Shown here: positions 50,928 to 64,000 of the stretch, one piece after another | Layout of the letters: the number at the start of each line of letters is the position of its first letter | How positions within the stretch are numbered: position 1 is the first letter of the stretch | Source: Pusillimonas sp. T7-7 | GTDB lineage: Bacteria > Pseudomonadota > Gammaproteobacteria > Burkholderiales > Burkholderiaceae_B | Direction of reading: 5' to 3' | Length of the DNA stretch: 64,000 nucleotides | Assembly: GCF_000209655.1 (NCBI RefSeq) | Contig: NC_015458.1 | Span: 682,001 to 746,000, forward strand | Program-made: the position numbers and the translations under genes | Notes under the pieces: generated by a model | What the model saw: only the letters and a program-made list of their open reading frames with translations | The model's database searches: none | What the model was told of the DNA's origin: nothing

Positions 50928-52322
50928 TCAGGTCAGATTGCGGGTGCTGATGGCCGTTTTTGCCTTGGCCATTGTTTTAACATAAGGACGACTTTCCGGA
51001 ATGCCGCGTTCGCCCTGCGCATAATAGCTTGCTGCCACTTGTGTGCTGCGTTTTTTTGCGTTCACGGTAAGCGCTGATTCGCGTTGCGGGTGCAGGACGC
51101 GGTCGCCTTGTGCATCGCGAACCCGAGTTACCAGACCCATGCGATTCATCAAGTCTATGAATGGCTTGGGGTCCAGTTCTTCTACGTTGGCCATGTGGCC
51201 TACGTCCCAGGCGCCGTCGGCAATCAGCATGGCGGCCGCAACCACCGGCACGCCAGCTGTGTACGAAATAGCTTGACTGCCGACTTCTTCGTAGCTTTCC
51301 TTGTGATCGCAAATGTTGTAGATGAGCACTTCTTGTGGTTTGCCGTTCTTTTTGCCTTTGACCAGGTCGCCTATGCAGGTCTTGCCCGAGTAGCCGGGAG
51401 CCAGCGAGGCGGGGTCGGGCAAAACCGCCTTGACGACCTTCAGCGGTATGACCTCTTGCCCTTCGGCGGTGCGTACGGGCTGTTCGGATAGCAGGCCCAA
51501 GTTTTTGAGCACGGTGAAAACATTGATGTAGTGGTCGCCAAAGCCCATCCAGAAACGAATATTGGGCACGCCCAGGTTTCTGGACATGGAGTGCAGTTCA
51601 TCGTGGCCGGTAAGGTAGGTGGTATTTTTACCTACGACCGGCATGTCCCATTCCTGGCGGTGTTCGAACATGGCATTGGCTTTCCATTGGCCCTGTTCCC
51701 ACGACCACACTGTGGAAGTGAATTCGCGGAAATTGATTTCCGGGTCGAAGTTGGTGGCGAAGTAGCGTCCGTGACTGCCGGCGTTGATGTCGATGATGTC
51801 GATGGATTCGACTTTATCGAAATAGGTGTCCATGGCAAAGCGCCCATAGGCATTGACGACGCCCGGGTCAAATCCCACCCCCAAAATGGCGGTTACACCG
51901 GCCTTCTTGCAGTCGTCACGCCGTTTCCATTCGTAGTTGCCATACCAGGGTGGAGGCTCGCACACTTTGCTGGGATCTTCATGGATGGCGGTGTCGAGGT
52001 AGGCGGCGCCGGTTTCTATGCAGGCAGTCATGACCGCCATATTCAGGAACGGTGAGCCGACATTGATCACGATCTGGCTGTTGGTTGAGCGAATCAATGA
52101 CTTGGTGGCTTCGATGTCGAGGGCATCCAGTGCATGCGCCTGCAAGCGCCCAGCGCCGCGCTGACTACCTTTTTCCTTGATGGATTTGATAATGGCCTGG
52201 CACTTTTCCAGCGTGCGCGATGCAATATGAATATCGCCCAGCAAAATATTGTTCTGAGCGCATTTGTGGGCGGCTACATGAGCGACGCCGCCGGCGCCGA
52301 TAATAAGAACATTGCGTTTCAT
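50928..52322 (-). CDS. Saccharopine-dehydrogenase-like, carboxy(nor)spermidine dehydrogenase
   Basis: A 464-residue NAD(P)-dependent enzyme: GAGGVAHVAAHKCAQNN (Rossmann motif, about 9-25), GVGFDPGVVNAYGRFAMDTY, a substrate-binding domain, and a C-terminal return to the Rossmann part. It is read together with a carboxynorspermidine decarboxylase gene (40 bp between). In this route (Vibrio, Campylobacter) a diamine and aspartate semialdehyde are joined and reduced by this enzyme, then decarboxylated to norspermidine or spermidine. Homologues are also called Lys1-type saccharopine dehydrogenase, but the partner gene supports the polyamine role. The ATG at 52322 marks the domain start. Confidence 0.88.
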   Translation of the reverse strand: MKRNVLIIGAGGVAHVAAHKCAQNNILLGDIHIASRTLEKCQAIIKSIKEKGSQRGAGRLQAHALDALDIEATKSLIRSTNSQIVINVGSPFLNMAVMTACIETGAAYLDTAIHEDPSKVCEPPPWYGNYEWKRRDDCKKAGVTAILGVGFDPGVVNAYGRFAMDTYFDKVESIDIIDINAGSHGRYFATNFDPEINFREFTSTVWSWEQGQWKANAMFEHRQEWDMPVVGKNTTYLTGHDELHSMSRNLGVPNIRFWMGFGDHYINVFTVLKNLGLLSEQPVRTAEGQEVIPLKVVKAVLPDPASLAPGYSGKTCIGDLVKGKKNGKPQEVLIYNICDHKESYEEVGSQAISYTAGVPVVAAAMLIADGAWDVGHMANVEELDPKPFIDLMNRMGLVTRVRDAQGDRVLHPQRESALTVNAKKRSTQVAASYYAQGERGIPESRPYVKTMAKAKTAISTRNLT

Positions 52323-52362
52323 TGTGGATAATCCCCTAATTGTTGAAATAAGTGCAGTGCTG

Positions 52363-53469
52363 TCAGGACAGACTGTTGACGTAGTCGTCAAAGGAAAATT
52401 CGCGCACTACGCGCATGGAGCCATCGGCTTCTTTGATTGCGATCGACGGCATGTGCACGCCGTTGAACCAGTTTTTCTTGACCATGGTGTAACCGGCGGC
52501 GTCCCCAATGGAGATGCGATCGCCGACTTTAAGCGGGGCGGCAAAACGGCCTTCGCCGAAGATATCGCCTGCCAGGCAGGTTTTGCCGCAGATCATGTAT
52601 TCGTGTTCACCGATGCCGTCGCCCACTGGCGCGGTCTCTCGGTAAATCAGCAAATCGAGCATGTGTGCTTCGGTGGAGCTGTCTACCACAGCCAGGTGCT
52701 TTCCGTTGAAACCGACATCGAGCACGCTGACTTCGAGTGTAGTGCTGTGGCGTACGGCGGCCTCGCCGGGTTCGAGGTAAACCTGAACATCGTATTCTTG
52801 CGCGAAGCGGCGCAGGCGCTGGCAAAACACATCGACCGGATAATCTTGTGCGGTGAAGCTGATGCCGCCGCCCAGGCTTACCCATTTCAAACGCTTGAGA
52901 ATATCGCCATAAGTTTGTTCGACCTGGGTAAGCAAATCGTCGAAGCGTGCAAAATCGCTGTTTTCGCAATTGTTGTGGATCATGACGCCGTCAAGCTGAT
53001 CGACCACCGCCAGAATGCGCGCCGGGTCGGTCTCGCCCAGCCGGCTGTAAGTGCGGGCGGGATCGGCCAGATCAAAGCCTGCGCAGCTGATGCCGGGGTT
53101 AAGACGCAGGCCCATGGGTTTGCCCTGGGCTTTTGGTGCGAACCGTTCCAGCTGATTGATGGAGTTGAAAATGATCTTGTCGCAATTGGCCACGACTTCT
53201 TCGATTTCGTGATCGGCAAAAGCGACGCTGTAGGCATGGGTTTCACCGCCGAACTTCTGGTGGCCCAGCTTGACTTCGTATAAAGACGAGGAGGTGGTGC
53301 CGTCCATGTGCCGGCGCATCAGGTCGAATACCGACCAGGTGGCAAAGCACTTGAGCGCCAGCAGGACTTTGGCGCCGGAGTGCTTGCGTATGTAATCTAT
53401 GGTGTCCAGATTGCGTTGCAATGCTGGCTTGTCGATCAGGTAGTAGGGTGTTGGCAGGGTGGTATGCAT
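52363..53469 (-). CDS. nspC: Carboxynorspermidine decarboxylase
   Basis: A 368-residue PLP enzyme of the alanine-racemase-fold type III group. The PLP Lys is in KVLLALKCFATWSVFDLMR (about residue 40), and other motifs are KFGGETHAYSVAF, WVSLGGGISFTAQDYP, VYLEPGEAAVR and YMICGKTCLAGDIFGEGRF with the catalytic Cys and Asp. It removes CO2 from carboxyspermidine or carboxynorspermidine, completing the non-aminopropyltransferase polyamine route together with the dehydrogenase downstream. The ATG at 53469 is 6 bp after the stop of a Cro/CI-type regulator gene, which may head the operon. Confidence 0.93.
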   Translation of the reverse strand: MHTTLPTPYYLIDKPALQRNLDTIDYIRKHSGAKVLLALKCFATWSVFDLMRRHMDGTTSSSLYEVKLGHQKFGGETHAYSVAFADHEIEEVVANCDKIIFNSINQLERFAPKAQGKPMGLRLNPGISCAGFDLADPARTYSRLGETDPARILAVVDQLDGVMIHNNCENSDFARFDDLLTQVEQTYGDILKRLKWVSLGGGISFTAQDYPVDVFCQRLRRFAQEYDVQVYLEPGEAAVRHSTTLEVSVLDVGFNGKHLAVVDSSTEAHMLDLLIYRETAPVGDGIGEHEYMICGKTCLAGDIFGEGRFAAPLKVGDRISIGDAAGYTMVKKNWFNGVHMPSIAIKEADGSMRVVREFSFDDYVNSLS

Positions 53470-54164: not shown

Positions 54165-56111
54165 TTAGCTGCCGATTACGCCGCCATCATCCTTGGTGAC
54201 AATAACGGTCGCCGAGCGGGGAATGCTAGTGCCGCCGTCAGGCCAGTGGCTGTTTCCGGCTTCGCCAGGGTGCTGAATATTGATGAACATGGTTTTGCTG
54301 TCTGGTGTGAAAGCAATGCCCGTTACTTCGCACTCTTTTGGGCCAGTCAGGAAGCGTCGTATCTCTTTGCTGGCTGGGTCGGCGCATAGCATCTGGTTGT
54401 TGCCCTGGCCTTCATATTCGCCGCTATTGCTGTATTTTCCATCAGTCTGTATCCATAGGCGTCCGTCCTTGTCGAATGCCAGTCCATCAGGGCTGTTGAA
54501 CATATTGTCCGCGGTGATGTTGGCTGAACCGGAACTCAAGTTGTTGCGATCAGTGTATTTGACCGGGTTGCCGGCAAGCACGAAGATATCCCATTCAAAA
54601 CGGGTGGCGGCAGCGTCGCCAGCAGCTTCGCGCCAACGCACAATCTGACCATAAATATTTTTGGCGCGCGGGTTTGCCGCATCGGGTGTCGTGCGTTTGT
54701 TATTGTTGGTAAGCGTTACATAGACTTCGCCGCTGCCTGGGTGCACGCTGACCCATTCCGGGCGGTCCATTTTTGTGGCGCCTACCGCATCGGCGGCCAA
54801 GCGCGCATGAATCAGCACTTCAGCCTGCGATTTGAATTCATCAGAGGCGGCCAGTGTGGTGTTGGCTGCTTTATCAAGCAGCACCCATTCGCCTGTACCC
54901 ATGAAGTCGCCTGAGGCTGCCCCATCGTTGAATTTGGCGACATACAGCTTGCCTGCATCAAGTAAAGACGAGTTATCGCCACCTTCCTGATAGGTGTTGT
55001 CGGAGACGAATTTATATATATAGTCATTGCGTTGGTCGTCGCCCATATAAACGACGACGCGCTGGTCGGACGTTAGTGTATAGGCCGCGTTCTCGTGCTT
55101 GAAACGTCCGAGTGCGGTGCGTTTCTTGGGTGTTGAATCCGGATTGAAGGGGTCGATCTCGACGATCCAGCCATGACGGTTTGATTCGTTGGGCTCCTTA
55201 GCGTAATCGAAACGTTCTTCGAACTCCTCCCAGCGATATTGACTGCCCTTGGCCGAAAGGCCGTAGCGTTTTTGTGCCGTATTGCGCGTGTCGCTGCCTG
55301 ATGCCGTGCCAAAATAATTGTTGAAGTTTTCTTCGCAAGCCAGGTAGGTATTCCAGGGTGTCCAGCCATTGCCGCAGTTATTGAACGTGCCCAGTACTCG
55401 GGTGCCAGTGGGGTCTGCCTGGGTTTGGAGCAGCGCATCGCCTGCCGCCGGGCCGGTCAGTTCCATGGGCGTGGCTGCTGTGATCCGGCGGTTATAGCGT
55501 GAGTCCTGCTTGATTTCCCATTTGTCGGCACTGCTGCGTGCAATGTGGATCACCGACACACCGTGGGCATTGATGGATTTCTTGACCTTGTCTGCTGTCA
55601 AGGGCTCGGTGCCATTGGCGCCAAACAACCAAACGTAGGCGCCGTCGTCTACGGTCGCATACTCATGATTCATTGTCAGCAAGCCTTCGGTGCTACTGCC
55701 GTTGATGGCAAAAAAGTGTATGCCGTCATGGTTGTCGCCTAGCTGTCGTGCCTGTGCGGCTGCGTCGTCGCTGGCATCCGCCTTCCATGCGGGATCTGCG
55801 CTGAACAACGGCGTGCCCCAGGGCGCAAAGACAGTGGCGGTATAGCCCGCTGCAACGGTGATTGAGTCATCAGTGGAAATCGGAATGGTCTTGAAGCCAA
55901 GCAGGACAGGGGAGCCTGCCGGACTGGTCTGGGCGGGTTCTTTACCGTAGGCGCTGATTGGACCGCTCAGGAACAAGGCGGCCGATAGCCCGAGGCCCGA
56001 TTTTAGAAAACCACGCCGGCTGTATGCGCGTTCGACTACGGTCTGGAAATGTTCGTTTGCCGAAGTATTGCTTGGCAGATCTTCAGAATCGACAGGACAG
56101 GATTTTGGCAT
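54165..56111 (-). CDS. phoX: PhoX-family alkaline phosphatase, Tat-exported
   Basis: A 648-residue protein of the PhoX (DUF839) family. A Tat signal is at residues 28-65 (YSRRGFLKSGLGLSAALFLS, with twin Arg and a hydrophobic core). Beta-propeller motifs follow: VAAGYTATVFAPWGTPLF, LLTMNHEYATVDDGAYVWLF, LACEENFNNYFGTA, and a late DGLAFDKDGRLWIQTDGKYS. PhoX enzymes are Ca2+/Fe3+-dependent phosphomonoesterases that act in the periplasm on organic phosphates. It stands alone. No Pho box was recognised in the 225-bp upstream stretch. Confidence 0.9.
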   Translation of the reverse strand: MPKSCPVDSEDLPSNTSANEHFQTVVERAYSRRGFLKSGLGLSAALFLSGPISAYGKEPAQTSPAGSPVLLGFKTIPISTDDSITVAAGYTATVFAPWGTPLFSADPAWKADASDDAAAQARQLGDNHDGIHFFAINGSSTEGLLTMNHEYATVDDGAYVWLFGANGTEPLTADKVKKSINAHGVSVIHIARSSADKWEIKQDSRYNRRITAATPMELTGPAAGDALLQTQADPTGTRVLGTFNNCGNGWTPWNTYLACEENFNNYFGTASGSDTRNTAQKRYGLSAKGSQYRWEEFEERFDYAKEPNESNRHGWIVEIDPFNPDSTPKKRTALGRFKHENAAYTLTSDQRVVVYMGDDQRNDYIYKFVSDNTYQEGGDNSSLLDAGKLYVAKFNDGAASGDFMGTGEWVLLDKAANTTLAASDEFKSQAEVLIHARLAADAVGATKMDRPEWVSVHPGSGEVYVTLTNNNKRTTPDAANPRAKNIYGQIVRWREAAGDAAATRFEWDIFVLAGNPVKYTDRNNLSSGSANITADNMFNSPDGLAFDKDGRLWIQTDGKYSNSGEYEGQGNNQMLCADPASKEIRRFLTGPKECEVTGIAFTPDSKTMFINIQHPGEAGNSHWPDGGTSIPRSATVIVTKDDGGVIGS

Positions 56112-56336: not shown

Positions 56337-56786
56337 ATGCCAAAGGAACGTTCAAAACATACTCCGCCCAAGCGCGGAGCCTGGGCAGTCATTTATTGCC
56401 CCGCTACCGGCAAGTTTTTGCTCGGTAAGCGTTCCAGTGCGGTCAACAATAGCGGGACCTGGAATCTTTTTGGCGGGCGTGTCGAGCGCAACGAAGAACC
56501 TTTCAAGGCCTTGATGCGCGAGCTGGCAGAAGAAGCAGGCTGGCGCATCAAGCCCAAGCATTTGGACAAGCTGGGCAGGGTGGCAGGCGTCAAGAAAAGT
56601 AAAAGAGTCGGCGACCGCGAACTGCATTACTACTTATTGAAAGTCGATAAAGAAGTCGCTCCGCGGCTGAACCGCGAACACTCAGACTATAGGTGGTTCA
56701 AGCACAAGCGCCTTCCCGGCAAGTACAACCTGCCAACCGCCGTAGCCATCGAGCTTGGCTTGTTGAAGAACGTCTCGCTGTCGTAG
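56337..56786 (+). CDS. Nudix hydrolase
   Basis: A 149-residue single-domain Nudix protein. The Nudix box is read from GRVERNEEPFKALMREL (Gly about 51) into AEEAGW, matching GX5EX7REUXEEXGU. The N-terminus is basic (KERSKHTPPKRG). Members hydrolyse nucleoside diphosphates linked to other groups; the substrate is not known. It is divergent from phoX with 225 bp between, and the upstream AT-rich part may hold both promoters. Confidence 0.9.
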   Translation: MPKERSKHTPPKRGAWAVIYCPATGKFLLGKRSSAVNNSGTWNLFGGRVERNEEPFKALMRELAEEAGWRIKPKHLDKLGRVAGVKKSKRVGDRELHYYLLKVDKEVAPRLNREHSDYRWFKHKRLPGKYNLPTAVAIELGLLKNVSLS

Positions 56787-59637: not shown

Positions 59638-60432
59638 GTGAATTCAGCTGAGGAAATTGCCGCGCTGGCGGGCGATCCTAATTTCATGGCGTCGCTGGCA
59701 CGTGGCCTTGTAGTGATTCGAGCTTTTTCAGCTGAACGCCCGCATATGACGGTTTCGCAGGTCAGCCAAAAAACAGGCATACCTCGTGCAGCTGTGCGAC
59801 GCTGCTTGTACACGCTCTGCAAAATGGAATTTGTTGATAGCCTGGAAGGGGGGATGTTTGGCTTGAGGCCCAGGGTGCTTCTTCTGGGGCATGGCTATTT
59901 TGCTTCATCGTCGCTGCGCCAGGCGGCCGAGCCGATTTTGAATCGTTTAAGCGGCCCGCTAGATGAGTCAAGTTCAGTCTCGGTTCTTGATGGCGATGAC
60001 ATACTCTACATTGCCCGCGCGCAAACCAAACGCCTGATGGCCATGCATCTGGATGTGGGTAGTCGGCTTCCCGCCATCTATACATCAATGGGACGTGTTT
60101 TGATCGCAGCCTTGCCTGAGCAGGAGCAAGAGCAGTATCTGGCCCGTGCCCGGTACATTCAGTACACGCCACATTCACTTGTGGATGCCAAGGCGCTTGT
60201 CCAAGAACTACAGCAGGTTCGTGCTCAAGGATTTTCAATCATTGACCAAGAGCTTGAGGCGGGTGTCCGGTCTATTGCTCTTCCGGTCATGGGCCGGGAT
60301 GGTCGACCCAAGGCCGCCATGAGCGTAGGGGTGCATGCTCAGCGGGTAACCATCCATGAGATGAAAGAGAAAATTCTGCCGGCGCTTCAGGAGGCCGTGA
60401 CGGAGCTGACCTTGCTTAGCAAGACGATCTAG
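59638..60432 (+). CDS. IclR-family transcriptional regulator
   Basis: A 264-residue IclR protein. The winged helix-turn-helix (about 15-75) contains TVSQVSQKTGIPRAAVRRCL. The effector domain (about 85-255) has SSVSVLDGDDILYIARAQTK and the typical SMGRVLIAALP, GFSIIDQELEAGVRSIALPV. The GTG start at 59638 has AGGAGA 6 bases before it. It is divergent from the BKACE/Bug/SDR genes with a clear palindrome between, and most likely controls them in answer to the pathway substrate or an intermediate; PcaR-like similarity is seen. Confidence 0.93.
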   Translation: MNSAEEIAALAGDPNFMASLARGLVVIRAFSAERPHMTVSQVSQKTGIPRAAVRRCLYTLCKMEFVDSLEGGMFGLRPRVLLLGHGYFASSSLRQAAEPILNRLSGPLDESSSVSVLDGDDILYIARAQTKRLMAMHLDVGSRLPAIYTSMGRVLIAALPEQEQEQYLARARYIQYTPHSLVDAKALVQELQQVRAQGFSIIDQELEAGVRSIALPVMGRDGRPKAAMSVGVHAQRVTIHEMKEKILPALQEAVTELTLLSKTI

Positions 60433-60457
60433 CCAAACGGAACAAGAGTCGGGTCCA

Positions 60458-61204
60458 TCAGGCAATTTTATTGATGATCTCTTCGGACAGCGTTCCATAG
60501 GCCTGGCCCGCCGCGCTGTTGGGCGAGGTGGCCATGACTGGCGCCCGGTGCACACCCATGCGCTCAACGTCGGAAGCAAACGGAATATGGGTTTGCAGGA
60601 AACGCTTGCGGAACTTGTTTCCCATGGCCTCCATGGTTTCAAGGTGGAGGTTCTTTACACCCTGGACCATAGAGAAAAAACCATGCAGTTTTTGTACCGG
60701 AAGCTTGTTTTCCTTGAAAAAGGAAATGAGCTGTTCAAAGGTGCGCTCGGAAAGCGTGGTGGGAATGACCGGCACAACAATGGCGTCGGCCGATCGGAAG
60801 ACGTTTTCGGACAGCGTTGAAATGGTTGGCGGGCAATCGAGCACGATGACGTCGTAATCATCTTTGACGGCTTTTAATGATTTCTGAAGGCGATTATGGC
60901 TATTGCGCATCTGCGACAGGAATACGTCAAAGTCGCGAAAGCTTATGTTGGCGGGCAGGATGTCGAGGTTTTCGTAGTCGCTGCCACGGATTGCGTCGGT
61001 GAATTTTTCTGCGTCCTTGAAAAAGGCCGTATTCGTCAGTTTTTTGGAGGGTTTTACGCGAAAATAAAAACCCGAAGCGCCCTGTGGATCCAGATCGCAT
61101 AACAGTGTTCGGTATCCCGATGCAGCCATTGCATAGGCCAAGTTGACGGAGGTGGCTGTTTTGCCGACGCCCCCTTTGTTCGAGTAGCAGGCAATGATCT
61201 TCAT
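60458..61204 (-). CDS. ParA-family ATPase of an RHH-CHAD-ParA operon
   Basis: A 248-residue Walker-type ATPase. The deviant Walker A KGGVGKTATS is at residues 10-19, LLCDLDPQGASGFYF (A' motif) at about 35-49, Walker B VIVLDCPPTI at about 118-127. It lacks the N-terminal helix-turn-helix of plasmid type Ia ParA and so resembles type Ib and cargo-positioning ParA/McdA proteins. It overlaps the upstream CHAD gene by 4 bases (ATGA). No ParB gene is present; the partner is expected to be the small RHH protein and/or the CHAD protein. The role inferred is moving or spacing a CHAD-bound cargo over the nucleoid. Confidence 0.9.
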   Translation of the reverse strand: MKIIACYSNKGGVGKTATSVNLAYAMAASGYRTLLCDLDPQGASGFYFRVKPSKKLTNTAFFKDAEKFTDAIRGSDYENLDILPANISFRDFDVFLSQMRNSHNRLQKSLKAVKDDYDVIVLDCPPTISTLSENVFRSADAIVVPVIPTTLSERTFEQLISFFKENKLPVQKLHGFFSMVQGVKNLHLETMEAMGNKFRKRFLQTHIPFASDVERMGVHRAPVMATSPNSAAGQAYGTLSEEIINKIA

Positions 61205-62736
61205 GGGTGTTGAGTCTTCCTTTCTTGAAAGAGTTCGCTGAATGTTTGCTGTGTTTCGGGGCTGTTGAATCGCGTAAAGCTCTTTACGATTTTGGCCCGC
61301 TCTTTGAGTTGGCGGTTATGAAGCACGGCGATCAGTGCGCCTATGCTTTGGGCGACCTCAAGGTTGTTATCGTCTTGATTCCCGGACAAGGCCAGTAAAG
61401 TCTTCTGCAGGCTTACCTGCTGGACCGAGTAATCGTTGAACAGCCCAAGATTGTCCTGCAAGCCCTTTAGCGATTTGAGCAGCTTTTTAAAAGCGGCGGG
61501 TGGAAATACCGTGCCAAAGAATTCCATGAGGTAGCGCAGCTTCTTGCACTGTATGCGCAAGTCGTGGACTTTGGCGTCAGGCGTGTCGGCATCTATGCAG
61601 GTAGCAATCTTGCATACCTTGCGGTAGCGCCTCCAGATCAGCTTGCTGGCGTAATCGTGCGCTGGCAGCTGGGCATTGGGCCCTTGTTTCAAGCCTTGAG
61701 GCTGAGTAAAGAGTGCTGCAAGCTTCTTGATTTCTTGCTGGTAAGGCTGGCTGCGCAAATAGTGCGACAGCTTGACTTGTTCAGCCTGCCTTTGGTCGGC
61801 GAATATGTTGTAAAGGGTGTTCAGGCCTTTGTGCAGGTTTTGGGGCAGCAGCGCGTAATAGGCCTGCTTTTCGAGCAGGTAGACGTCCAGGTCGCGCAAG
61901 GGCCCGGTGGGCGCCATGATCGCTGAAAACCTGGCTTTCAGGTCGGCCGTTTGTGCATGGTCATAAATGCCCTGGAACAGGCTGACTACAGACCTGATCT
62001 TGCGCAACTGTATGCGGTAGTCATGCAGGAACTCGGTATCGTGATCGGCAATGATGCCGTGTTCGTTTGCACGGGCAATGGGAAGGTGGGCGCCGATGAT
62101 TTTGTTTGCCGCATCGAAAGCAGTGGTGTCGCTGGCGATGGCGATTTCAGGCTTGGCGTCGTAGGCGGCTTGCAGGGGAAACAGCGATTCATACAAGGCA
62201 TTGCCGCTAACGGCAAACCCGCCCAGGTCAACGATGCGCTCACGCAGGGAATCAAGTGACGCGTCGTAGCCCCTGATTTCCTGCAGCACCGCCAAGGCGG
62301 TGGCACGGCTTTTTTCGGCAGTGATAAACAACAAATATGCCCGGCAGTGCGTTTTCTCTTCGTCGTCGATGAGCGTCAGCACAGCATGCTGCCGTTCCCC
62401 CGATCCTGCCGGCAAAAGCCGGCGTAGCGGTGATAGATCTGCCAGCGCCTGTTTAAGCGGGCCTTTGGCAAAGTCTGTAACAAAACCTACTTCGCCCTCT
62501 GCCGCTTGAGATATCGGCTGGCCGGCTTCGTGAAAGAGCTCGAGGGTGCTGTGGGTTTTCAGAAGGATTCGGCCTGAATGACGCAAGGACTGATCAAAGC
62601 AATCGAGTGCGGTGTATGCCGCGATATCGCTTTCCAGCCTTAGCAATGGTCTGAGCTTGCCAATGGATTGCGAGGTCAGGTCGTTGATTGATGCGACCGG
62701 TAATTGGTAACAGCAAGAGGGGGACGTGATCATCAA
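61201..62736 (-). CDS. CHAD domain protein (polyphosphate-binding) coupled to ParA
   Basis: A 511-residue protein. The C-terminal half (about 215-500) is a CHAD domain: EFLHDYRIQLRKIRSVVSLF, GPLRDLDVYL, KVHDLRIQCKKLRYLMEFFG with the conserved His and Lys/Arg residues that form a basic channel binding polyphosphate. The N-terminal part (about 25-190) may be a degenerate CYTH-like domain but lacks the E-x-E-x-K catalytic start. CHAD proteins sit on polyphosphate granules in Ralstonia (known). Here the gene overlaps the RHH gene before it and the ParA gene after it by 4 bases each, a very tight unit. Confidence 0.88.
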   Translation of the reverse strand: MMITSPSCCYQLPVASINDLTSQSIGKLRPLLRLESDIAAYTALDCFDQSLRHSGRILLKTHSTLELFHEAGQPISQAAEGEVGFVTDFAKGPLKQALADLSPLRRLLPAGSGERQHAVLTLIDDEEKTHCRAYLLFITAEKSRATALAVLQEIRGYDASLDSLRERIVDLGGFAVSGNALYESLFPLQAAYDAKPEIAIASDTTAFDAANKIIGAHLPIARANEHGIIADHDTEFLHDYRIQLRKIRSVVSLFQGIYDHAQTADLKARFSAIMAPTGPLRDLDVYLLEKQAYYALLPQNLHKGLNTLYNIFADQRQAEQVKLSHYLRSQPYQQEIKKLAALFTQPQGLKQGPNAQLPAHDYASKLIWRRYRKVCKIATCIDADTPDAKVHDLRIQCKKLRYLMEFFGTVFPPAAFKKLLKSLKGLQDNLGLFNDYSVQQVSLQKTLLALSGNQDDNNLEVAQSIGALIAVLHNRQLKERAKIVKSFTRFNSPETQQTFSELFQERKTQHP

Positions 62737-62918
62737 GGCTTCTTTGAAGGGGTGTTTATATAGGCTTGGACAAGCGTTTCGATGATTTTCTGCACGCTTG
62801 TGTCTTCTTCGATGGCGCGGATTTTCAATGCCTTTAAGGTCTTTTTTTCAAGCCGTAAGGAAGTGTTCTTTTTGCTGTTGATGTTTGTTGCTGAATCGCC
62901 TGTTTTATCTTTACCCAT
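62733..62918 (-). CDS. Small ribbon-helix-helix DNA-binding protein
   Basis: A 61-residue protein. A disordered Lys/Ser/Asn N-terminus (1-18) is followed by an RHH fold: NTSLRLEKKTLKALKIRAIE (strand then helix) and DTSVQKIIETLVQAYI (second helix). It resembles CopG/ParG/Arc-type proteins. In ParG the flexible tail contacts the ParA ATPase. It heads the CHAD-ParA operon and overlaps the CHAD gene by 4 bases. A TGACGTCA palindrome lies just upstream and is a likely binding site, so it probably represses its own operon and may also act as the ParA partner. Confidence 0.82.
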   Translation of the reverse strand: MGKDKTGDSATNINSKKNTSLRLEKKTLKALKIRAIEEDTSVQKIIETLVQAYINTPSKKP

Positions 62919-62934
62919 GATTATTCACTTTCAT

Positions 62935-62960
62935 AATGACGTCATTGTTTCATGACGTTT
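62935..62960 (-). promoter_or_regulatory. Putative RHH operator upstream of the RHH-CHAD-ParA operon
   Basis: Perfect 12-bp palindrome AATGACGTCATT (62935-62946), then another ATGACGT at 62952-62958, a 16-bp step from the first. It lies 17 bp before the RHH start codon. Confidence 0.6.
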
Positions 62961-63107
62961 TATGGCGGTCAAGATATCGGATTGGCATCTTGCCGATTCT
63001 GGATCTGCTTGTTATTCTTTGCAGACTGATAAAAACTAATACACACATGTGAAACATAATCGCGGTTTTACATACACGAATAAATATAAGGACGGAGGCT
63101 TTATTCA

Positions 63108-64000
63108 ATGCGCTCATATCTTTTCGTTCCCGCCGATAGCCAGCGCAAGCTGCAAAAATCTTTGGGCACCGGTGCGGACGCGCTTATTTTTGATCTGGAA
63201 GACGCCGTATCACTGGCTCGCAAAGAAGAGGGCCGCAAGATTCTGGCCGAGTTCCTGGACCAGACCCGGCAAGCGGGTGGTACGGCAGCGCAGTTGCTGG
63301 TAAGGGTTAACGCCCTGACTACGGGTATGACTTTGGCGGACCTGGCTGCGGTCATGCCTTACAGGCCGGCAGGCATTGTGCTGCCCAAGTGCCGGGGCGC
63401 CGCCGATTTGAATTTGCTGGGTTCATATCTTGATGTATTCGAGCAGCTGTACCCGGCATCGGCCAATACGGCTTCCACCTCCATTCTTGCCATTGTGACG
63501 GAAACAGCCGATTCCTTGGCGGGGCTGAACGAGTACCGGGGCGCCTCGCCGCGCCTGGCCGGCATGATGTGGGGGGCCGAAGACCTATCCGGGGATATCG
63601 GCGCGCTGGCCAACAAGCAGGAAGCCGCCCCGGAAGAATGGACGGCTCCATTTACGCTGGTGCGCTCATTGTGCCTGTTTGCCGCTGCGGCGGCGGGCGT
63701 GGCGGCCATCGACACAGTGCCCACAGAAATCAACAACCCGGAAGCGTTGCTGCGGGAAACCCGCCAGGCATATCGTGACGGCTTCTCGGCCAAAGCCGCC
63801 ATTCATCCTGGGCAAGTGCCAGTGATTAATCAAGGCATGACGCCAGATGAAAAAACCATTCAGTGGGCCAGGAATGTGGCGGCTGCCTTTGAGCAGAATA
63901 CCGAGGTCGGGGTAGCCACCCTGGATGGAAAAATGCTCGATATGCCTCATTTGCGGCTGGCCAAAAAGATTCTTTCCGCAGCTGAAAAGGCGGGACTAGC
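63108..64000 (+). CDS. CitE-like HpcH/HpaI aldolase/CoA ester lyase (3' end outside window)
   Basis: The first 297 codons are open to the window edge. MRSYLFVPADSQRKLQKSLG, DALIFDLEDAVSLARKEEGR (acidic metal ligand region), VNALTTGMTLADLAAV, VLPKCRGAADLNLL, VTETADSLAGL and MMWGAEDLSGDIGAL are standard motifs of the citrate-lyase beta-like family: malyl-CoA, citramalyl-CoA or similar acyl-CoA lyases. GGAGG lies about 9 bases before the ATG. The usual length is about 280-300, so only a few codons are likely missing. No partner gene is in view; the substrate is unknown. Confidence 0.92.
   Translation, partial: MRSYLFVPADSQRKLQKSLGTGADALIFDLEDAVSLARKEEGRKILAEFLDQTRQAGGTAAQLLVRVNALTTGMTLADLAAVMPYRPAGIVLPKCRGAADLNLLGSYLDVFEQLYPASANTASTSILAIVTETADSLAGLNEYRGASPRLAGMMWGAEDLSGDIGALANKQEAAPEEWTAPFTLVRSLCLFAAAAAGVAAIDTVPTEINNPEALLRETRQAYRDGFSAKAAIHPGQVPVINQGMTPDEKTIQWARNVAAAFEQNTEVGVATLDGKMLDMPHLRLAKKILSAAEKAGL

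Follow-up and report, generated by a model that had tools for sequence, protein, structure and literature searches.

A ParA-type ATPase gene linked to CHAD as a candidate polyphosphate-granule positioning system in Pusillimonas sp. T7-7

The 64,000-nucleotide stretch of the Pusillimonas sp. T7-7 genome analyzed here (NC_015458.1, positions 682,001 to 746,000; the window) carries a compact unit of three genes encoding a small ribbon-helix-helix (RHH) protein, a CHAD protein, and a ParA-type ATPase. From the evidence of sequence, we consider this unit likely to be a positioning system for polyphosphate (polyP) granules, with ParA as the positioner and the CHAD protein as the cargo adaptor. Genome comparisons confirm that linkage of one distinct ParA clade to CHAD constitutes a recurring bacterial gene set, beyond chance. 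The evidence presented comprises the recurrence of this linkage, the conservation of polyP contacts, ParA motifs that are intact, and a dedicated RHH protein with a matched DNA site. The placement and inheritance of polyP granules in bacteria are treated as an open question in the consulted portions of a 2025 review (PMC13052382).

Recurrence of the CHAD-ParA pair

The three minus-strand genes listed in a preliminary description of the window, in the order RHH, CHAD, ParA, are all present (60458-62918). The CHAD gene product matches Pfam CHAD at 3.6e-58 and the ATPase matches AAA_31 at 1.3e-42; Pfam matches of the RHH protein are weak and fall under the curated cut-off (RHH_4, 9e-4). The 4-bp overlaps that had been described hold for the CHAD and ParA reading frames (ATGA) and, at the RHH/CHAD junction, only if CHAD starts at a TTG codon, the adjoining ATG leaving an overlap of 1 bp. 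No ParB is encoded among the unit's three genes, and no ParB search was made elsewhere. The genome holds one CHAD gene, one PPK1, and PPK2, as well as six AAA_31 matches, the best of which is a gene other than the unit's ParA.

We analyzed together 100 ParA loci drawn from ParA queries, a CHAD query, and the window itself. CHAD lies directly upstream of ParA on the same strand in 24 of them, five of which (L032-L036) entered through the CHAD query; the gap ranges from -4 to +17 bp, and a 4-bp overlap is found in 18 of the 24. The solo loci, in which CHAD is not adjacent, include four (L254-L257) that fall outside the clade in the ParA tree and two with less than 1.5 kb of upstream sequence. 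Among the matches listed for other, non-clade ParA proteins, some of them on short contigs, CHAD adjoined none of 73 loci and was absent from the stretches fetched for them, and by this control chance adjacency of CHAD and ParA was rejected. A query with the CHAD protein found some CHAD match in 171 of 300 genomes of the order, and ParA lay directly downstream in five of 29 CHAD loci examined besides the window's, these ATPases being 42-47% identical to the window ParA. A ParA profile search of genome contigs yielded at least 80 loci, the top seven being clade members; among these listed matches, four have CHAD immediately upstream (Rhodothalassium, Thiogranum, and metagenome-assembled genomes of Desulfobacterales and Microthrixaceae), two are solo, and one has only 366 bp upstream, too short to judge. 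The pair is found in Pseudomonadota, Thermodesulfobacteriota, and Actinomycetota, and also on Paracoccus plasmids.

Clade ParA occurs in 16 of 268 genomes of the window's family (in one, G837, the match is partial and holds a stop), and CHAD adjoins it in 10 of the 16. All 16 genomes contain CHAD, against 211 of the 268 overall, a comparison uncorrected for descent; a second, unlinked CHAD is listed in G848, G889, and G890. Across the phylum, clade ParA was detected in 72 of 398 sampled genomes, and the same 398 were searched for CHAD, with four weak ParA matches (G410, G444, G577, G668) omitted. CHAD was present in 57 of 68 ParA-positive versus 145 of 330 other genomes (Fisher p 7e-10, likewise uncorrected for descent), with at least one in 24 of 25 families. 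The tree places G668 in the clade, and counting it gives 57 of 69.

The proposed tie of ParA to polyP biology is supported by this linkage and co-occurrence and by neighboring CYTH, NUDIX, PPK2, and SixA genes. CYTH lies near 9 of 28 linked versus 0 of 76 solo loci and NUDIX near 8 of 28 versus 0 of 76, counts that include L188, L186, L317, and L318, whose match to the CYTH and NUDIX models follows from their use in training. The annotation reads CHAD-ATPase-CYTH on each of the six Paracoccus plasmid stretches, with NUDIX on four; in one of the six, P. marcusii pCP157_03, pstA-pstB-phoU-phoB ends ~1.3 kb ahead of the unit, two hypothetical genes intervening, and on the P. liaowanqingii plasmid ParA reads in two pieces. 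The gene order in G435 is RHH-CHAD-ParA-CYTH-NUDIX. In G890, PPK2 immediately precedes RHH on the same strand, and the NUDIX gene beside parA, 61% identical to the window's NUDIX gene, was not found in the other fetched family stretches. SixA-type histidine phosphatases are found close to the pair in L035, L178, and L179 and also close to one solo locus. A different, 207-residue ParA, scoring just 46-52 against the clade profile, stands beside a CYTH-CHAD gene in the f14 loci L017, L019, and L029, apparently a second, independent association of ParA with a phosin; the two of these read at length, as L041 (G243) and L042 (G014), combine the order SixA-ParA-CHAD with a gene resembling PPK2, an assignment that Pfam confirms in L041. 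In genomes with solo ParA, a gene that by eye looks like PPK2 lies alongside four of 10 short-CHAD loci (L272, L280, L281, L283). Ten plasmid records match ParA to 1e-35, and six of them are from Paracoccus; no CHAD is annotated near ParA on the Pontibacter and Marinobacter plasmids (8 of the 10 records examined).

Conserved features of the CHAD protein and ParA

The solved chain nearest to the CHAD protein is CtCHAD (3e0s, 1.7e-51; the nearly identical 6qv7, 2.1e-51). According to the consulted parts of its description, CtCHAD was crystallized with polyP, and mutating its central residues H253, R256, R260, R296, R418, and Y419 in combinations weakened polyP binding (PMC6537752). The equivalents of these contacts in the window protein are H237, R240, R244, R280, R400, and Y401, and all six are invariant in the 28 ParA-linked CHAD proteins compared (24 loci and four plasmid copies). 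We infer from this conservation that the CHAD protein binds polyP, as the preliminary description had supposed. Of 24 linked CHAD proteins, 23, the window's included, have no ExExK motif within their first 130 residues; all 15 ordinary CYTH-CHAD N-termini compared retain it. A CYTH-like domain lacking its catalytic motif is probably a scaffold or interaction module. In an AlphaFold model built from a 5-row alignment, the CHAD part is confident and the N-terminal region, at low confidence, contains beta strands.

In a tree of 102 ParA rows, a branch of 2.01 (SH-aLRT 100) parts the clade (94 rows) from other ParA proteins. The members linked to CHAD are spread through several sub-lineages, with six label changes against a shuffled mean of 21.6; the tree program warned of meeting long branches, so these details are unsure. 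The window ParA has the deviant Walker A motif KGGxGKT with its signature lysine and the Walker A' and B aspartates, and K10, G11, G12, G14, K15, T16, D37, D39, and D123 are invariant in 13 of 13 aligned members; solo member L245 departs from the Walker A consensus (KSGTGKT). Among solved chains, the window ParA comes closest to a ParA family protein and to Soj, the best match being at 2.9e-41. A candidate gene for a cargo adaptor accompanies the ATPase in the form of CHAD, adjacent in the window as in the linked loci overall. An action of this ParA on the nucleoid would be predicted by analogy. In G005 and G100 the ATPase bears a C-terminal extension with a weak CYTH-like motif, possibly a fusion; Pfam CYTH does not recognize the extension, which leaves the support from hhalign.

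The RHH protein, its presumed operator, and the surrounding genes

By profile, the RHH protein is present in 7 of 24 CHAD-ParA pairs and at none of the 76 solo loci; one diverged RHH was found in addition at L195, and the remaining 16 pairs have none. In the 268 family genomes there are six strong matches, each immediately ahead of CHAD-ParA, and one weak match that contains stops; among 72,556 plasmid records the RHH protein matched only the six from Paracoccus, readable on five and interrupted by ambiguous letters on the sixth. The RHH-CHAD-ParA order of the window recurs in G435, on the Paracoccus plasmids, and, within the family, in six of the 10 pairs. An N-terminal MxKx[KR] motif is common to the eight RHH proteins compared, including the diverged one at L195, and to the readable Paracoccus proteins; the start codons of L174, L175, and L316 were picked by alignment. 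The motif would be consistent with a tail that touches ParA.

The palindrome noted ahead of the unit, TGACGTCA, is indeed present, as a single copy in the window, and proves to be part of a longer conserved operator (Table 1). TTGAC, with ACGTCATGAAAYAMTGACGTCA after it, is common to the upstream regions of six family members, and G435 carries it in the opposite orientation. A 22-bp pattern, derived from the same seven sites on which it was tested, is exact in all seven RHH-bearing genomes searched and absent, at up to three mismatches, from six genomes without RHH; a reversed control pattern matched once, in G435. There is one exact site per genome in six of the seven and two in G862; the additional copies comprise the second exact one in G862 and one with three mismatches in G000. 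Five Paracoccus copies retain TGACGTCA ~27 bp ahead of the aligned RHH start, and L195 lacks the operator. The second exact copy in G862 (L307, about 1501) marks a possible second regulon member; it lies between what we take to be genes for a TRIC-family channel and an MFS transporter.

On sequence grounds, the RHH protein is dedicated to the CHAD-ParA unit and has a matched site, and it is best read as an optional autoregulator acting through this presumed operator. A role as obligatory third member was rejected, since it is absent in 16 of 24 pairs. The earlier suggestion that it is a general, ParG-like activator of ParA loses support on the same distribution, with RHH in 7 of 24 pairs, at 0 of 76 solo loci, and once in diverged form; in the pairs without it, CHAD or another protein must activate ParA, and the CHAD protein should therefore be the general ParA partner. 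That the basic RHH tail stimulates ParA is speculative.

The unit is flanked in the window (60432-63108), and also in G868 (L174 and L171 compared), by genes that we take to encode an IclR-type regulator and a CitE-like protein. The cassette sits at a different place in G869 of the same genus, which suggests that it moved. Elsewhere in the window, two adjoining genes (50928-53469) presumably encode carboxynorspermidine dehydrogenase and decarboxylase, as judged by reading the open reading frames, and a gene at 54165-56111, a few kb from the unit, presumably encodes a PhoX-like (DUF839) phosphatase.

Table 1. Features of the CHAD-ParA unit and a nearby gene in the window
Feature	Position	Strand	Description
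Small RHH protein, 61 aa	62733..62918	minus	dedicated to unit; N-terminal tail MGKDKT
CHAD protein, 510 aa from ATG (511 if TTG at 62736)	61201..62733	minus	degenerate CYTH-like N-terminal region and CHAD domain
CYTH-like N-terminal region of CHAD protein, without ExExK	62101..62733	minus	weak hhalign match
ParA-type ATPase, 248 aa	60458..61204	minus	KGGVGKT deviant Walker A; member of distinct ParA clade
Presumed RHH operator ACGTCATGAAACAATGACGTCA	62937..62958	minus	includes TGACGTCA palindrome at 62937-62944
NUDIX hydrolase	56337..56786	plus	possibly loosely linked member; 61% identical homologue beside parA in relative G890

Proposed positioning of polyphosphate granules and alternative readings

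In the mechanism that we favor, the CHAD protein would coat or bind polyP granules and act as the cargo adaptor, its CYTH-like domain probably serving as a scaffold or interaction module after loss of the catalytic motif. By analogy with ParA and McdA, ParA-ATP would bind the nucleoid non-specifically and be released on meeting the adaptor; this stimulated release would, in turn, space granules over the nucleoid and share them between daughter cells. Where present, the RHH protein would bind the conserved operator and autoregulate the unit, and its basic N-terminal tail may, more speculatively, also stimulate ParA.

Several described systems resemble the unit in part. CHAD phosins (CtCHAD, ReCHAD, ygiF) share the CHAD domain and the six mutated central contacts; unlike them, the unit's CHAD is encoded with ParA and belongs to the set in which 23 of 24 CYTH-like N-termini lack ExExK. 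The original phosin paper is reportedly that of Tumlirsch and Jendrossek (2017). As in McdAB carboxysome positioning, the unit combines a ParA-type ATPase with a dedicated adaptor for a cytoplasmic body; the adaptor, however, would be a polyP-binding CHAD protein and the presumed cargo a polymer granule, and McdA is not the nearest solved chain to the unit's ParA. A basic N-terminal stretch of McdB is needed for its contact with McdA, according to the part of the report consulted (PMC12204374). AlgP, for polyP, and PhaM, PhaF, and PhaH, for polyhydroxybutyrate (PHB), link storage granules to the nucleoid as the unit is proposed to do, and differ from it in that the consulted portions of the 2025 review name no ATPase for them (PMC13052382). 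For polyP, those portions name AlgP, a DNA-binding protein, and no other, state that the proteins responsible in Caulobacter are not identified, and leave open whether energy is spent on polyP granules (PMC13052382). The statement in the preliminary description that no system of this make-up was described must be qualified: a folD-ppk-parA-CHAD cluster of Acidithiobacillus, comparable by gene order alone, places parA beside a CYTH-CHAD gene and ppk, and the consulted parts of two papers present this conserved ppk-parA-CHAD context, calling ParA a plasmid or chromosome partition protein and giving gene context with no positioning proposal (PMC10892726, PMC6416229). In the open-access literature, with subscription papers and preprints mostly outside the scope of the search, we found no proposal of a ParA acting on polyP granules; within the consulted main text, PMC9239181 does not mention ParA, and PMC10241942 mentions neither polyphosphate nor granule.

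A number of observations weigh against positioning of polyP granules as the function of this ParA. Solo loci make up 76 of the 100, and in the phylum sample CHAD is adjacent in only 7 of the 68 genomes with a strong ParA match, the genes usually lying apart. The preliminary description had held that rare adjacency elsewhere would refute it; the phylum figure has that sense, while the occurrence of CHAD somewhere in 57 of the 68 genomes and the adjacency in 10 of 16 family genomes have the opposite one. No CHAD match was found in 11 of the 68 ParA-positive genomes (12 of 69 with G668), of which four or five fall in family f85, where CHAD is present in 3 of 7 ParA-bearing genomes; this family speaks against strict dependence, and the many solo loci together with the CHAD-less genomes suggest that the clade may serve other cargo. 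Conversely, 145 genomes of the phylum sample have CHAD without clade ParA. A search of 12 genomes that have CHAD but no clade ParA next to it yielded none elsewhere either, with a model that does match in the family and phylum searches, and none was found in the G867 genome, despite a high-scoring CHAD (L296). A Thiodictyon plasmid carries a related CHAD close to pstS, and its annotation shows no ParA beside this gene; on Marinobacter nauticus pMAQU02 (L324, 4001-4747) a solo clade ParA lies near phbB. Within the CHAD protein, Trp takes the place of R385, one of six outer polyP-patch positions, in the window and 18 of 28 proteins; the residue there is basic (Lys or Arg) in five of 28, and the other five outer positions are mostly Lys or Arg. 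The likeness of the N-terminal region to CYTH is weak (hhalign E 4.8e-4, probability 32%, over 208 columns), as is that of the ParA extension. Pfam CYTH does not match the window region and, of seven N-terminal or extension stretches scanned, matches only L052, the Actinomycetota case, which retains ExExK. Residues 1-200 of the AlphaFold model have pLDDT below 60, so that the model leaves the CYTH fold unsettled, and in the CHAD protein we identified no peptide that would activate ParA.

Some of these points would suit a broader role, in which the clade's ParA proteins, solo and linked, are general positioners of storage granules (polyP, PHB, others) and CHAD is one of several adaptors. The 76 solo loci, the 11 CHAD-less genomes, and the pMAQU02 copy, which may represent a PHB-granule counterpart, favor this reading, but we judge it quite improbable, given CHAD in 57 of 68 ParA-positive genomes and no recurrent adaptor candidate noticed in the 18 solo neighborhoods read. 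A divergent gene that we take to be RnfH-like does neighbor solo ParA in four loci of Gammaproteobacterial appearance (L196, L200, L201, L230). In L050 and L187, with Alcanivorax-type solo ParA, a conserved opposite-strand gene presumably resembles DUF4062. An unlikely but better-placed alternative is that the ATPase controls polyP metabolism or granule assembly, as an ATP switch that acts on a CHAD/CYTH/PPK2 complex to limit the size of granules or to disperse condensates. Enzymes and transport of polyP and phosphate neighbor some loci (CYTH, NUDIX, PPK2, SixA, pst/pho), and the DNA-binding AlgP alters granule number and size in Pseudomonas, according to the consulted portions of the review (PMC13052382). 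Against this stand the ParA motifs, which are those found in ATPases that position cargo, and the structural matches, a ParA family protein and Soj being the closest of the solved chains; it is also hard to tell size control from positioning.

The conjunction of RHH, ParA, and an upstream palindromic site, together with the Paracoccus copies on plasmids, could instead suggest a derived, type Ib-like DNA partition locus with CHAD carried along. ParF-ParG-parH of TP228 likewise joins a ParA to a small RHH protein and an upstream site; it differs in having no CHAD, the RHH being optional in our unit. In ParABS and type Ib partition as usually defined, a centromere binder, ParB or RHH, is always present and the site is repeated. 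Here, RHH occurs in 8 of 24 pairs, counting the diverged one, so that a binder accompanies only the RHH-bearing subset, window included; CHAD stays in the 16 pairs without RHH, and the exact site stands once per genome in six of seven and twice in G862. The contig that bears the window copy is 3.88 Mb long and presumably the chromosome, ParF matches distantly (4.9e-16 versus 2.9e-41 for the best), and the parFGH order, with RHH downstream of parF, differs. We regard a derived partition locus as highly improbable. Plain plasmid or chromosome partition was rejected: the genome has a better AAA_31 match elsewhere, and it is CHAD that recurs, not RHH.

Positioning of polyP granules by ParA and CHAD is the reading that we retain for the window unit. 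We lean, with less assurance, towards a wider proposal: an ATP-driven system for positioning and partition of polyP granules, spread over at least three phyla and plasmids, in which a distinct ParA clade would act with a CYTH-CHAD phosin adaptor, mostly without the catalytic motif, and in which, in some lineages, a dedicated RHH protein would couple partition to expression of the set and provide a second ParA contact. If true, this would supply named, testable components for polyP placement, including in environmental Paracoccus strains, and would add a new cargo to those of the ParA family. It would also explain why many orphan ParA genes of the clade reside in CHAD-bearing genomes.

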